Assembly (NCBI RefSeq): GCF_902498785.1
Contig: NZ_LR701494.1
Span: 1,193,105-1,257,104, forward strand
Length of the DNA: 64,000 nt
Source: Sphingomonas sp. EC-HK361
GTDB lineage: Bacteria; Pseudomonadota; Alphaproteobacteria; Sphingomonadales; Sphingomonadaceae
Reading direction: 5' to 3'
Positions 14,849-25,238 of this stretch are shown here, piece after piece (position 1 is the stretch's first letter; each line of letters opens with the position of its first letter). Both the position numbers and the translations under genes were made by a program. Under the pieces are notes generated by a model. That model searched no databases and was not told the DNA's origin. It saw nothing but the letters and a program-made list of their open reading frames with translations.

Positions 14849-14894
14849 CTGGCGCACCCGACAGGATTCGAACCTGTGGCCTCTGCCTTCGGAG
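14849..14894. other. attL: displaced 3' end of tRNA-Arg
   Basis: These 46 bases are identical to 25193-25238 and correspond to the 3' part of tRNA-Arg including the T arm, CCA and part of the anticodon stem. Identity stops abruptly after TTCGGAG. Because the intact tRNA with its 5' part is at the right end, this copy is the original chromosomal 3' end pushed aside by integration. Confidence 0.9.
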
Positions 14895-14975
14895 AACTCT
14901 CTCTGCGCCTGCGCGCACGGTTTTCTGCGGCATTTCACCGGCGTTTGTGGCGGAACAAGACCGGAAACGATCGAC

Positions 14976-14999
14976 GTAGCGGAGACAAAACGGGGACAG
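14976..14999 (+). promoter_or_regulatory. Putative integrase arm-type sites, left end
   Basis: GTAGCGGAGACA followed closely by CGGGGACAG lies about 80 bases inside attL. The same word (TAGCGGAGAC) occurs twice at 25134-25156 near attR, with an inverted TGTCTCC at 25169-25175. Short repeats near both ends of an element are typical arm-binding sites of tyrosine integrases. The role is inferred from position and repetition only. Confidence 0.45.
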
Positions 15000-15018
15000 G
15001 TTTAGCATGCTGGCCGCC

Positions 15019-16080
15019 CTATGCACGACGGTCTGCCGCGCGGCGCGCGCTTGCCAGATGGTCTGGAGAGTGATGGGCGTAAAGCTCCGTCGTTCTAGCT
15101 ACAGACTGCCCGAGCCACCCCCCAATCTCGAACATCGAAACTCCAGCCTGGGCCATCCACGTCCCGCACGTATGTCTAAGCGTGTGAGGCACGACGCCCG
15201 TATCAGCCAAACCGGCTCGCGTGCATGCTCGGCCGAAGCTCCCGCTCCTCGCGTCTCCGATGTCCGTGATCCTGTGACCGTTTCGATGCACGACATAGCC
15301 AAGATCGCTGCCGCGACGCCTAGCCAGCCTTAGGAACGTCATCAGCCGATCCGGGATCGGCAAGATCGGCCGCCCCTTACTCGTGCGTTTGCGACCAGGG
15401 GGATTGAAATTTATAATTCCGCGATCGAGGTCGATTTGTGGCCAGCGAAGCGACAAGATCGCCTCTTTACGTGCGCCGGTGTAAAGCGCGATCACCAGGA
15501 ACAGCGGCAGATAGAGACGCGTATCGGAGCGCGACCGCACAGCCGCATGAATGAGCTGCGCGGCTTCCGTTCGGGAAAGCCATCGGCCGCGTCCTTCCGG
15601 CTTGGAAGGCAGAAAAACGTGCGGCACTGCCGTCAGGCGTCCGTAACGCTGAGCGAAATGAAGCGATGCGCGGAGCGTTCCAAGTTCCTTGCGGATTGTC
15701 CCCGGACTCCGCTTTCGCTCTCGCGTGTAGGCTCGGCACGTCTCTTGCGTGATCGCGCTTACCATCGACGCTCCCCAAAATGGCAGCAGCGCGTCGATCG
15801 CATATGCAATCCGCTCGGGCGCCGCGGTCGTCGGAGCATGCTCAGCTCCATACAGCGCAAGCGCATCGGCTATTGGAAACTGTGAGGGATCACGAGGCCC
15901 TCGTGGGAGGTCGATCTTTCCGCGCTCGATAATGAACTCGGCGAGCCGCGCTTCAGCTTCTCCGCGATCATTCGTGCCTGTGCTACGCTGGCGCTTGTTG
16001 CCGGCGTCATACCATTGGATGTAGAAGACGCCGCGCTTGCGCAGGAATTTGAGACCGGGGCCATTATTGGGGCGGGGCAT
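15019..16080 (-). CDS. int: Tyrosine-recombinase integrase
   Basis: A 353-residue site-specific recombinase. The N-terminal half includes a short arm-binding region and a SAM-like core-binding domain (about residues 70-155). The catalytic domain shows Arg204 (TGARKEAIL), a lysine near 232-235, His299-x-x-Arg302 (HTLRH), Trp322 (GGWLGQS) and the nucleophile Tyr334 (ELYAHH). GGAAGG lies 8 bases before the ATG at 16080. The gene sits 125 bases inside attL, the expected place. It is overlapped by the upstream HTH gene in another frame, so translation is likely coupled. Confidence 0.94.
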   Translation of the reverse strand: MPRPNNGPGLKFLRKRGVFYIQWYDAGNKRQRSTGTNDRGEAEARLAEFIIERGKIDLPRGPRDPSQFPIADALALYGAEHAPTTAAPERIAYAIDALLPFWGASMVSAITQETCRAYTRERKRSPGTIRKELGTLRASLHFAQRYGRLTAVPHVFLPSKPEGRGRWLSRTEAAQLIHAAVRSRSDTRLYLPLFLVIALYTGARKEAILSLRWPQIDLDRGIINFNPPGRKRTSKGRPILPIPDRLMTFLRLARRRGSDLGYVVHRNGHRITDIGDARSGSFGRACTRAGLADTGVVPHTLRHTCGTWMAQAGVSMFEIGGWLGQSVARTTELYAHHSPDHLASARRAADRRA

Positions 16081-16367
16081 AACGTCACCTTCCGATCCTG
16101 AATGAACCTATCGACATCGCCGCGTTGAAACATCCACGTTTTGCCGATCTTCACCGCCGTGAGACCCTGCGACCGCATCGATCGAAGCGTTCTTGGCGAA
16201 GGTAATCCGTAGGCAACGGCAACCTGCTCAGCTGTCATCAACGGCTCGATCACAGGCACCTCCAAGATGTCTTCTCGCTGTTCGACGCACCCCCACACCC
16301 CCACTCTCGCATGTCGGGAGCGATGCTTCCTTTTGGGAAGGGGTCGCTCATCATCATGAGCCGACAC
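15870..16367 (-). CDS. Excisionase/AlpA-like HTH protein with unusual overlapping tail
   Basis: Of 165 residues, the middle (about 42-92) is a winged HTH of the excisionase type (MTAEQVAVAYGLPSPRTLRSMRSQG, then KTWMFQRGDVDRFI). Such proteins regulate or assist integrases. Past the domain the frame stays open for 210 bases inside the integrase gene, giving a serine-rich tail with no recognisable feature. The tail may be a genuine overlap, or the protein may end earlier in related elements. The start could be ATG 16367 or the internal ATG before TAEQV. It overlaps the upstream gene by 14 bases. Confidence 0.7.
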   Translation of the reverse strand: MSAHDDERPLPKRKHRSRHARVGVWGCVEQREDILEVPVIEPLMTAEQVAVAYGLPSPRTLRSMRSQGLTAVKIGKTWMFQRGDVDRFIQDRKVTLCPAPIMAPVSNSCASAASSTSNGMTPATSASVAQARMIAEKLKRGSPSSLSSAERSTSHEGLVIPHSFQ

Positions 16368-16863
16368 CGATTGAACGCGCCTCTATGAGAACCCTCATTT
16401 TCGCAAAAAGCCCACGCGCGACGAGCGCGACAGGAAGAACGATCATCACCCCGTCCTCTTCGCGATCTCCCGGCTGCCAAGGCCGAAGAATGTCGCCCGG
16501 CGTGCGCACCAAATTGAAGGTCATTTTCCCGTTGCCGCCGCTTGCAGGCGGTGCCGCAAAATGCTTCCCGTTGAAGACTTCGAGAAAGTCCCCCTCGATC
16601 GAGTCATATTCTGCGATCGCGTTGTCAGCGATCGCGCTGCCGATGCTTGGCGGCACTTTCATCGTAAAGGCCAGCAACCCTACCAAATCTGCGTGCAGCA
16701 GCTGGATCGCCGAAAACCGGCGCCGGCCATCGACGTGCACCGGTTTGATGTGACCGTGCTTCACCCAGCTCTTCGCCACTTCGATGTGCAAAGGCTCTCG
16801 CGTCAAGGTGACGAGGTCGTCGATGCCGAAGATTGGATCGCGCAGTAACGCGTTGGGGTCCAT
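16354..16863 (-). CDS. Putative MerR-like DNA-binding regulator of the element
   Basis: A 169-residue protein starting MDPNALLRD at 16863; the longer frame to 17328 is a shadow of the neighbouring gene. Residues about 12-60 (IDDLVTLTREPLHIEVAKSWVKHGHIKPVHVDGRRRFSAIQLL) read like a MerR-type winged helix. The C-terminal part is not recognised. It is first in a three-gene run ending with integrase. A perfect palindrome lies 40 bases upstream, a possible operator. The regulatory role is inferred. Confidence 0.6.
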   Translation of the reverse strand: MDPNALLRDPIFGIDDLVTLTREPLHIEVAKSWVKHGHIKPVHVDGRRRFSAIQLLHADLVGLLAFTMKVPPSIGSAIADNAIAEYDSIEGDFLEVFNGKHFAAPPASGGNGKMTFNLVRTPGDILRPWQPGDREEDGVMIVLPVALVARGLFAKMRVLIEARSIGVGS

Positions 16864-16903
16864 GATAAAACTCGCACAGGGAAACCGTTCCCCGTATCCT
16901 ATG

Positions 16904-16919
16904 GGGGAAGGACTTCCCC
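16904..16919. promoter_or_regulatory. Palindromic operator candidate upstream of the regulator-integrase run
   Basis: GGGGAAGGACTTCCCC has perfect 7-bp arms around a GA centre. A related half site, GTTCCCC, lies 10 bases closer to the gene at 16887-16893. The position just upstream of the start at 16863 fits a repressor site controlling the regulator and integrase genes. No -10/-35 assignment is firm. Confidence 0.5.
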
Positions 16920-24787: not shown

Positions 24788-24789
24788 GG

Positions 24790-25033
24790 GTGCTTCCAAT
24801 TTTGCGCGATACGGCAGTCTCCCAAGCCGCTGTTTCGCTTAGGTTTTTCCAAGGGGGAGAATTTCTAGAAGTTGAAATGGAATAGCTGGAAGGAGAAATC
24901 AGGTCAGCTACGTGCGCGCATAGCGCGCACGCGCGCACATGTGATGGGCGGGCCGCAAACTGCTTCCACATATTCCAAAGCCGCGAAAATGCTGGCGTTT
25001 CGTGCTTCCAAACGTGGTTCCAGCCGGAAGCAC
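24790..25033. repeat. Iteron-like repeats and palindrome upstream of the D5-like gene
   Basis: GTGCTTCCA or one-base variants occur at 24790-24798, 24960-24968 (CTGCTTCCA), 25002-25010 and 25014-25022 (GTGGTTCCA), with an inverted CGGAAGCAC at 25025-25033. A perfect palindrome (GTGCGCGC-ATA-GCGCGCAC) sits at 24912-24930. The 394-base gap 24800-25193 has no convincing gene. Such clustering could be a replication origin or operator set; function is inferred. Confidence 0.5.
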
Positions 25034-25087
25034 GGCTCCTTCCGCGTCCAACTCGGGTGCGGGCGTTTCGCCCGACCTCACCGCCAA

Positions 25088-25119
25088 CGATCTGGCATCG
25101 AGAATTCGGTGCCAGATCG
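25088..25119. repeat. Perfect 10-bp inverted repeat near attR
   Basis: CGATCTGGCA and TGCCAGATCG flank a 12-base spacer containing GAATTC. It lies 75 bases inside attR and could be a terminator-like stem, an excisionase site or part of an origin. Confidence 0.55.
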
Positions 25120-25133
25120 GGAGCCACGTAGCG

Positions 25134-25175
25134 TAGCGGAGACGATAGCGGAGACAACCCGCGAGGGGTGTCTCC
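25134..25175. promoter_or_regulatory. Putative integrase arm-type sites, right end
   Basis: TAGCGGAGAC occurs at 25134-25143 and again at 25146-25155, with an inverted TGTCTCC at 25169-25175, just inside attR. The same word lies inside attL at 14977. Repetition at both ends suggests integrase or accessory-protein binding. Confidence 0.45.
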
Positions 25176-25192
25176 TAAAAATGGCGGAAAAG

Positions 25193-25238
25193 CTGGCGCA
25201 CCCGACAGGATTCGAACCTGTGGCCTCTGCCTTCGGAG
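25193..25238. other. attR: 3' end of the intact tRNA-Arg
   Basis: Identical over 46 bases to 14849-14894. It forms the 3' part of the intact tRNA gene, so integration restored the tRNA using element-derived sequence. Confidence 0.9.

Follow-up and report, generated by a model that had tools for sequence, protein, structure and literature searches.

Phage satellites described so far borrow the shell of their helper phage, remodel that shell, or bring a head module together with its portal and terminase. The capsid-forming phage-inducible chromosomal islands (cfPICIs) belong to the last kind, encoding their own head and packaging set, portal and terminase included. Among gram-negative phage-inducible chromosomal islands (PICIs), the capsid gene is reported as the gene most often captured, in 21 of 29 reference islands (PMC10111431). 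Here I analyse a 64,000-nucleotide stretch of the Sphingomonas sp. EC-HK361 genome (contig NZ_LR701494.1, positions 1,193,105 to 1,257,104; hereafter the window), in which an element at a tRNA-Arg gene carries an integrase, an HK97-type protease and capsid, and a tape-measure protein (TMP). An original prediction, made from the DNA letters alone, had taken it for a candidate satellite that encodes a capsid and lacks terminase and portal. The element very probably is a member of a phage-satellite lineage, one that appears to bring shell, protease and often a tail ruler, and to leave portal and packaging motor to its helper.

The limits of the element are marked by a direct repeat of 52 nt (96% identical), with a distal copy at 14843–14894, a tRNA-side copy at 25187–25238, and a spacing of 10,344 bp. 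This attachment (att) repeat is the 3′ part of the attachment gene, a tRNA-Arg(CCG) identified by ARAGORN on the minus strand at 25194–25270, and its 40-nt core has exactly two copies in the window (0 of 100 shuffles). Adjoining the distal repeat is the gene of a tyrosine integrase (353 aa, 15019–16080, minus strand; PF00589, 8.7e-17; phrog_1, 3.6e-54). The element is thus small and integrated, with its own att sites and integrase and an incomplete set of virion genes, which is how satellites are generally recognised. All gene calls are mechanical open reading frames (ORFs), with starts chosen in part by hand.

Three head and tail genes follow each other on the minus strand. They encode an HK97-type prohead protease (210 aa, 22757–23389; PF04586, 7e-19; TIGR01543, 1.5e-24, over the cut-off), an HK97-type major capsid protein with an N-terminal extension (404 aa, 21529–22743; PF05065, 1.1e-52; TIGR01554, 4.4e-51, over the cut-off), and the TMP (778 aa, 19061–21397; phrog_9483, 2.1e-28; phrog_8462, 3.5e-28). 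In an alignment of seven sequences, two protease residues that I take to be of the catalytic kind, H59 and S107, are invariant. The integrase, protease, capsid and TMP genes are all open, and disabling mutations in capsid or protease, which would have spoken for decay, were not found. With the chosen starts, the gaps are 13 bp between protease and capsid and 131 bp between capsid and TMP. The tight junctions and intact genes of the original prediction therefore hold for the structural genes, but not for an excisionase-like gene that overlaps the integrase, nor for a primase-like gene that is only partial. Among named phages, 110 records match the TMP, each over no more than 80% of its length, and 1,031 match the capsid, all at less than 60% identity.

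No match at E ≤ 10 to the large terminase subunit (TerL), portal, head-tail connector, head closure, tail tube or DUF3168 was found among ORFs of at least 40 aa in the whole window, with profiles built from the loci fetched for this work, which divergent portals and terminases may escape. Applied to two sets of IMG/VR loci with related capsids, these profiles do detect portal or TerL, in 72 of 79 and in 53 of 63. In agreement, PHROGs gave no lysis, connector or tail-tube family in the ten main ORFs of the window, and no tail assembly chaperone was recognised in the window, whereas the TMP is present. The predicted inventory is borne out on both sides, by the matches to PF00589, PF12728, PF04586, PF05065 and phrog_9483 and by the absence of large terminase, portal, connectors, tail tube and lysis genes.

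Relatives were sought with the window capsid in 385 genomes from a single class, of which 17 had a match at E ≤ 0.001, and in 390 from a single family, of which 25 had one. A profile of four capsids was run against 398 genomes belonging to one order (9 at E ≤ 1e-20), and the genome draws overlap. Loci were fetched for 37 places with their flanks, for genomes G283 and G267, and for four more places, while weak places in G024 and G525 were kept without extension. From IMG/VR, the G283 capsid gave 79 new loci from the best 80 of 156 matches, and a profile of four satellite capsids gave 63 new loci from the best 80 of at least 80 matches. The first of these sets includes L197, L185 and L161, and the second L225, L226, L227, L228, L234, L240, L261 and L262.

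Two genomes, G283 and G555 (locus L090), carry capsid and TMP without portal or TerL by profiles. In G283 the order is again protease, capsid and TMP (phrog_27166, 7.6e-37), and a 17-nt repeat lies at the end of a tRNA-Ser(GGA), with a spacing of 10,497 bp. L090 encodes, along with capsid and TMP, one protein of the PF11836 type and one that is gp10-like (PF04883), and neither protease nor portal nor TerL was found there; it sits at a tRNA-Lys with a 63-nt repeat (87%) spaced 9,934 bp apart, and its capsid retrieved no relatives from IMG/VR. Among the other loci, L197 combines protease, capsid, PF11836-type and gp10-like proteins, TMP and integrase, and L234 protease, capsid, TMP, integrase and Phage_TAC_11-type and gp10-like proteins, both without portal or TerL. 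The satellite part likewise lacks portal and TerL in L225, L226, L227, L228, L240 and L261, as in L234. L227 lies at a tRNA-Gln, with a 50-nt repeat (98%), a spacing of 10,943 bp and a TMP of 669 aa. Elements with a similar gene set, for which the original prediction suggested looking at other sites, occur at tRNA-Ser(GGA), tRNA-Gln and tRNA-Lys. In the 11 satellites whose capsids form the clade described below, the protease gene lies beside the capsid gene (by profile) in all 11, and a TMP is recognised by PHROG in 6 (the window, G283, L197, L185, L227 and L234). A small protein preceding the protease is common to L197, L225, L226, L227 and L234, and another to L240 and L261. In L226 the capsid is followed by a small terminase subunit (TerS; phrog_83, 3.6e-8).

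The PF11836 family is named Phage_TAC_11, but Pfam describes it as a tail tube protein, and so does the description of phrog_8985. In the phage that carries L185, the PF11836-type protein comes after an apparent separate major tail protein and before the TMP, and because of this position I read it as a tail assembly chaperone.

A larger capsid tree was built from 212 matches at E < 1e-80. Lengths outside 340–640 aa and duplicates were removed (leaving 169), and phage capsids at least 85% identical to a kept one were then thinned out, satellite-flagged capsids being exempt, to give 117 sequences. The satellite label was assigned from gene content; for L226 and L240, which have no integrase in view, it refers to the lack of portal and TerL together with replication-type genes upstream. 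All 11 satellite-flagged capsids form one clade in this tree, with no phage capsid inside, and the label changes once, against a mean of 10.6 and a minimum of 9 in 1,000 shuffles. The loci were found with satellite capsid queries, which biases the sample toward nearby capsids, although the same searches also brought phage capsids. FastTree support is 0.994 for 10 of the 11, L234 being left out, and with IQ-TREE on 56 sequences, 10 of the 11, the window capsid included, stand together (SH-aLRT 94.3, UFBoot 91). In an earlier tree of 128 unique capsids (E < 1e-60), those of the window, G283, L197 and L185 made up a four-member clade (0.993), and that of L090 stood far off beside those of L086, L089 and L113. 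Thinned to 59 sequences, this tree had a FastTree support of 1.0. The capsids of L090 and L029 fell outside the E-value limit of the 117-sequence tree.

The clearest view of a possible helper comes from L185 (G1081:C1, about 21188–32043), in a 54.8-kb record of which about 25.8 kb were examined. Here the portal of a phage is in two pieces 10.8 kb apart (profile positions 1–236 and 223–321), with the satellite between them. There are two 11-nt flank matches, one at the portal break with a spacing of 10,855 and the other with a spacing of 11,263. The phage has its own TerL, protease, capsid and closure protein, and a TMP recognised by its similarity to that of the satellite. The two capsids are 49% identical. 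The satellite TMP (906 aa) exceeds the phage ORF (686 aa) by 220 residues and is longer in the middle, while the ends align (N-terminus, 33% over 282 aa; C-terminus, 47% over 209 aa). At a scale of 95 residues for an expected 10–15 nm (PMC12987554), the difference of 220 residues would amount to roughly 23–35 nm of tail. From its sequence, L185 is a candidate for a natural satellite-helper pair; with both TMPs in one record, the phage is a likely helper, and chimeric-tail assembly becomes directly testable. Remodelling of tail length, raised in the original prediction, is made plausible by this pair, and the window element may be capable of it too; elsewhere, satellite TMP lengths overlap those of phages. 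A general tendency of satellites toward shorter tails was considered and dropped for the same overlap (satellite TMPs, 658–906 aa).

Two further loci would be similarly placed, in genes for a phage protease (L161) and TerL (L261), as inferred from the right ends that are in view. L161:1-4893 shows the right end of a similar element, with a TMP-like end and an integrase 39% identical to that of L185. After the integrase come the apparent end of a protease gene (read from the DNA) and a phage capsid, and over 157 aa the TMP-like end shares 42% identity with an ORF of 644 aa in the adjoining phage. In L261:2131-10645 the integrase is followed by a truncated TerL, then by portal, protease and capsid. 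The window element itself is not in a helper late gene, but at its tRNA-Arg.

A link to another kind of satellite is provided by L086, L089 and L113, elements of about 10 kb with TerL, a ribbon-helix-helix (RHH) regulator, capsid, protease, portal, connector and integrase. I call them cfPICI-like, a label of my own. G283 and L113 share an integrase (57% over 355 aa) and a replication initiator (25% over 334 aa; lambda-O-like by PHROG), and the replication proteins of L090 and L086 match the same PHROGs (906 and 25693). That the portal-less G283, the nearest complete relative, has integration and replication genes in common with loci bearing portal and TerL adds to the satellite reading. The window integrase is about 30% identical to those of L089 and L086. 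The repeat-to-repeat lengths are 9,979 bp (L113), 10,262 bp (L089) and 10,517 bp (L086), and eight elements, including that of the window, the cfPICI-like loci and L185 (where the repeat is only 11 nt long), span 9,934–10,943 bp. This narrow range is suggestive only, since much longer elements would escape notice in loci of about 20 kb.

Taken together, it is probable that the window holds an integrated satellite that would follow the course toward a hybrid virion outlined here. Its integrase and excisionase-like protein would insert the element at tRNA-Arg(CCG) and remove it, as the att repeats suggest. An active helper siphophage would induce the satellite, which would be amplified. Protease and capsid would then form a procapsid around the helper portal and mature it, with the N-terminal extension of the capsid read as a scaffold (delta) domain. 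In HK97, a protease and a capsid protein with such an N-terminal domain suffice to build and mature a shell without portal. The helper terminase would fill the procapsid with satellite DNA and helper connectors would close it, while the satellite TMP would replace that of the helper as ruler in a tail whose tube and tip proteins come from the helper, the TMP being the tail ruler in such phages. Lysis functions would also come from the helper, and the outcome would be a hybrid particle with shell and tail ruler from the satellite.

On balance, I favour the view that the element makes such particles, with its own shell and tail ruler on helper portal, motor and tail. There is a precedent for the tail: virions of PLE11, one of the phage-inducible chromosomal island-like elements (PLEs) of Vibrio cholerae, are reported to contain the PLE TMP and to have tails about 10 nm shorter, against 10–15 nm expected; PLE TMP and BhuB are present in the chimeric tails, and deletion of tmp lowers PLE11 transduction by about 99.9% (PMC12987554). 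For the head, Ccm (PMC8569155) and PmCI172 (PMC6092414), both taken up below, are partial precedents. More tentatively, the proposal may extend to a lineage with its own capsid clade, whose members would supply shell, protease and tail ruler and take portal, motor and tail from the helper. They would sometimes be embedded in the helper portal gene (and, from the loci above, perhaps in those for protease or terminase), the helper gene being whole only after the satellite exits, and head and tail length would be set by the satellite.

Next to the integrase is a HTH_17/excisionase-like protein, with a helix-turn-helix (HTH) and an inferred GTG start (15870–16253, minus strand; PF12728, 7.2e-8; phrog_66, 5.6e-7). 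Its frame runs 211 nt into the start of the integrase gene, possibly by loss of a stop codon; the G283 counterpart overlaps its own integrase by only 14 nt. On the same strand are a 169-aa protein with an inferred ATG start and no family match (16354–16863), possibly a MerR-like regulator (the comparison with the MerR-like protein of G283 and L113 gives an hhalign probability of only 9%), and a 214-aa protein without convincing family match (16977–17621). The latter was considered as a gene common to the window and G283, and dropped because the sequence match turned out to lie antisense to the RHH gene. The plus strand carries the RHH regulator (62 aa, 17701–17889), similar to those of L113 (70% over 44 aa), L089 (62% over 47 aa) and G283 (46% over 61 aa), with relatives also in phage loci L084 and L284; a 146-aa protein without match in NCBIfam, Pfam or PADLOC (17886–18326); and a HTH protein (82 aa, 18744–18992; phrog_517, 9.8e-4). 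GC at third codon positions is 74–81% for TMP, protease and capsid, and lower than in host genes (84–89%) for the integrase (64%), RHH (53%) and 146-aa ORF (46%). A PADLOC scan of ten accessory proteins gave no match.

Upstream of the protease, also on the minus strand, a 78-aa protein (23520–23756) takes the slot of the small pre-protease proteins of the relatives, by position only, as it has no sequence match to them. ORF2 (85 aa, 23767–24024) has a homologue at the same position in satellite fragment L240 (phmmer, 5.5e-19); it was tried as a small terminase subunit, and this was dropped for want of support. ORF1 (161 aa, inferred ATG start, 24302–24787) matches the C-terminal domain of a primase, namely residues 745–817 of the 840-aa L240 primase (blastp, 8e-8); its matches to PHROG primase C-termini are weak (E 0.1–0.17), it has none among PDB sequences, and its structure model has a low confidence (pLDDT 41.6). 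Iterons near ORF1 were also considered, but repeats of TGGAAGCA are not above chance, 11 of 100 shuffles reaching their count. As IMG/VR queries, TMP and ORF1 gave no confirmed relatives.

Several observations were made in passing. Tandem iteron-like repeats with 33–36 nt spacing lie within the lambda-O-like initiator genes of two satellites, at L219:14037-14188 and L234:335-495, and by their sequence are likely internal origins. Capsid and small terminase subunit (phrog_83) occur without TerL or portal by profiles at L029:228-6843 and L226:1220-3934, and L029 also carries an integrase and what reads as a primase. L102 and L105 have portal, capsid and TerL by profiles, a TMP (1,214 and 654 aa by PHROG) and an integrase within the same 20-kb stretch, and are perhaps cfPICI-like with a TMP. 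At L053:1887-8845, a portal-capsid-connector-TerL block adjoins a tRNA-Arg(CCG), the isoacceptor used by the window element. L262 is the L185 record again. Outside the element, a 429-aa ORF (window 13536–14825) ends 17 bp before the distal att repeat and, judged by motif, reads as DNA-methyltransferase-like. Most other fetched loci have portal, TerL or an apparent gene-transfer-agent order, and the top-ranked PF05065 matches listed over 398 genomes are apparent gene-transfer-agent capsids; on partial inspection, L091, L098, L100, L101, L104 and L106 show neither portal nor TerL by profiles. A gene-transfer agent as helper was considered and dropped, as no evidence for it was found.

A number of points weigh against the proposed lineage and its hybrid particles. 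FastTree support for all 11 capsids is 0.355, L261 leaves the clade in IQ-TREE, the fast IQ-TREE analysis of the 59-sequence tree gives an SH-aLRT of 49.6, and a further small-tree IQ-TREE run an SH-aLRT of 29.4 and a UFBoot of 81. L090 and L029 are portal-less and have an integrase, yet carry more distant capsids outside the clade, so that the design is wider than the capsid clade. The TMP is not universal in the clade, none being seen in L225 and L228; L261 has a 1,178-aa protein in the TMP slot without PHROG match at 0.001, and L226 and L240 are short fragments with no TMP in view. Given the Pfam and PHROG descriptions, a tube protein may be present in L090, L197 and L234. In G283 and G555, the only match to Phage_portal (PF04860, the one portal family sought there) lies about 2 kb from an apparent gene-transfer-agent-type capsid, and these genomes thus appear without a resident helper of that portal type. 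Neither TerS nor a packaging site was recognised in the window, and the ORF2 structure model is weak (pLDDT 59.5), with nothing below E 0.5 in a fold search of the PDB. The element may be partly defective, because ORF1, its sole replication-like gene, matches no part of a primase other than the C-terminal domain, and 211 nt of the HTH_17 frame lie within the integrase gene. Finally, the capsid gene of gram-negative PICIs is reported to be dispensable for transfer (PMC10111431).

Part of these data could be read as decay. A single 35–50 kb prophage might have been deleted down to protease, capsid and TMP, kept by chance; all three do resemble those of one full S. parapaucimobilis prophage (47% over 154 aa, 44% over 347 aa and 41% over 347 aa, respectively), which is the best hit of the capsid among plasmids that share gene neighbours with the window, and the match of the replication-like gene to a primase is a partial one. 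Such a remnant would require two or more independent losses that left tight junctions on both occasions and open frames. Elements of this design recur at other tRNA genes, the capsids group in a clade of their own, and the nearest counterparts of the RHH regulator are in cfPICI-like loci. A full prophage at the same locus in relatives was not found among 390 genomes, where the best flank match is 71% over 527 bases and no close relative is present. I therefore regard a remnant as very unlikely, and the preference of the original prediction for a satellite over a decayed prophage is upheld by the relatives at other tRNA genes, the satellite-only capsid clade and the position of L185 in a portal gene. 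It is also improbable, if somewhat less so, that the element is a former satellite, now immobile and retained as host defence or by drift: the partial primase-like gene and the HTH_17 overlap fit this, whereas the att repeats are still 96% identical, integrase, protease, capsid and TMP are open, and the TMP, protease and capsid genes keep their third-position GC of 74–81%.

Unlikely as well, though the strongest of the alternatives, is that satellite capsid and TMP mainly interfere with the helper, the capsid being mixed into helper shells to alter head size and the TMP spoiling tails by competition, instead of both making up a particle of the satellite's own. The model for this is Ccm of SaPIbov5, a Staphylococcus aureus pathogenicity island (SaPI): Ccm is a capsid homologue reported to form only the pentamers of small capsids and no capsids alone (PMC8569155), and satellite-borne defences are known to act on tail assembly (PMC11364771, PMC12987554). 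Yet Ccm is cleaved, tentatively, by the helper protease in the published account, whereas here a protease lies beside the capsid in 11 of 11 clade members, which suggests an own shell; and both ends of the host-phage TMP are preserved in that of L185, as would be expected of a functional ruler. The satellite reading with hybrid particles is retained, and it carries a warning that capsid islands without portal and terminase need not be broken prophages.

The element can finally be compared with the described systems one by one. To cfPICIs, as represented by L086, L089 and L113, it is similar in its size of about 10 kb, tRNA site, integrase, RHH, a replication-like gene and own capsid and protease, but those loci have TerL, portal and connector, while the window has none at E ≤ 10; some published cfPICIs carry a putative tmp (PMC12987554). 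With the PLEs, going by their description, the lineage would share an own TMP on borrowed tail parts, and the Phage_TAC_11-type protein in L090, L197 and L234; a TMP in a satellite is therefore less unusual than the original prediction supposed, as chimeric tails with own TMP and tail assembly chaperone are described for PLEs. In contrast, PLE11 virions are reported to use the ICP1 capsid protein (PMC12987554), whereas shell and protease are element-encoded here. The cos-type SaPIs with Ccm and the island PmCI172 also have a satellite-encoded capsid homologue and small capsids (PMC8569155, PMC6092414). However, Ccm forms no shell alone, the role of the PmCI172 capsid gene is only suggested, their hosts differ, and the consulted parts of the two articles hold no mention of a TMP for either.

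Gram-negative PICIs are described with an integrase, HTH_17/AlpA, replication genes and a late zone of captured phage genes, all of which recall the present lineage, and the window has PF00589 and PF12728 genes side by side as they do, with no Phage_AlpA match listed. The lambda genes A, B, C and E encode TerL, portal, protease and capsid. Helper-embedded PICIs lie in 97% of cases in cognates of these four (PMC10111431), and insertion into helper late genes is therefore not new, their sites being of the same gene kinds as for L261, L185 and L161. What differs from both groups is the protease-capsid-TMP late zone and the separate capsid lineage. That survey covers Enterobacteriaceae and Pasteurellaceae, and none of the terms portal, tape measure, protease, Sphingo or Alphaproteobacteria appears in its main text. 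Within the accessible parts of the open-licence PMC literature, no description was found of protease-capsid-TMP satellites without portal and terminase, or of this capsid lineage. The parts thus have precedents in PLEs, cfPICIs, cos-type SaPIs and gram-negative PICIs, helper-embedded ones included, in a combination not found described, and the lineage may be an alphaproteobacterial counterpart of the helper-embedded PICIs.

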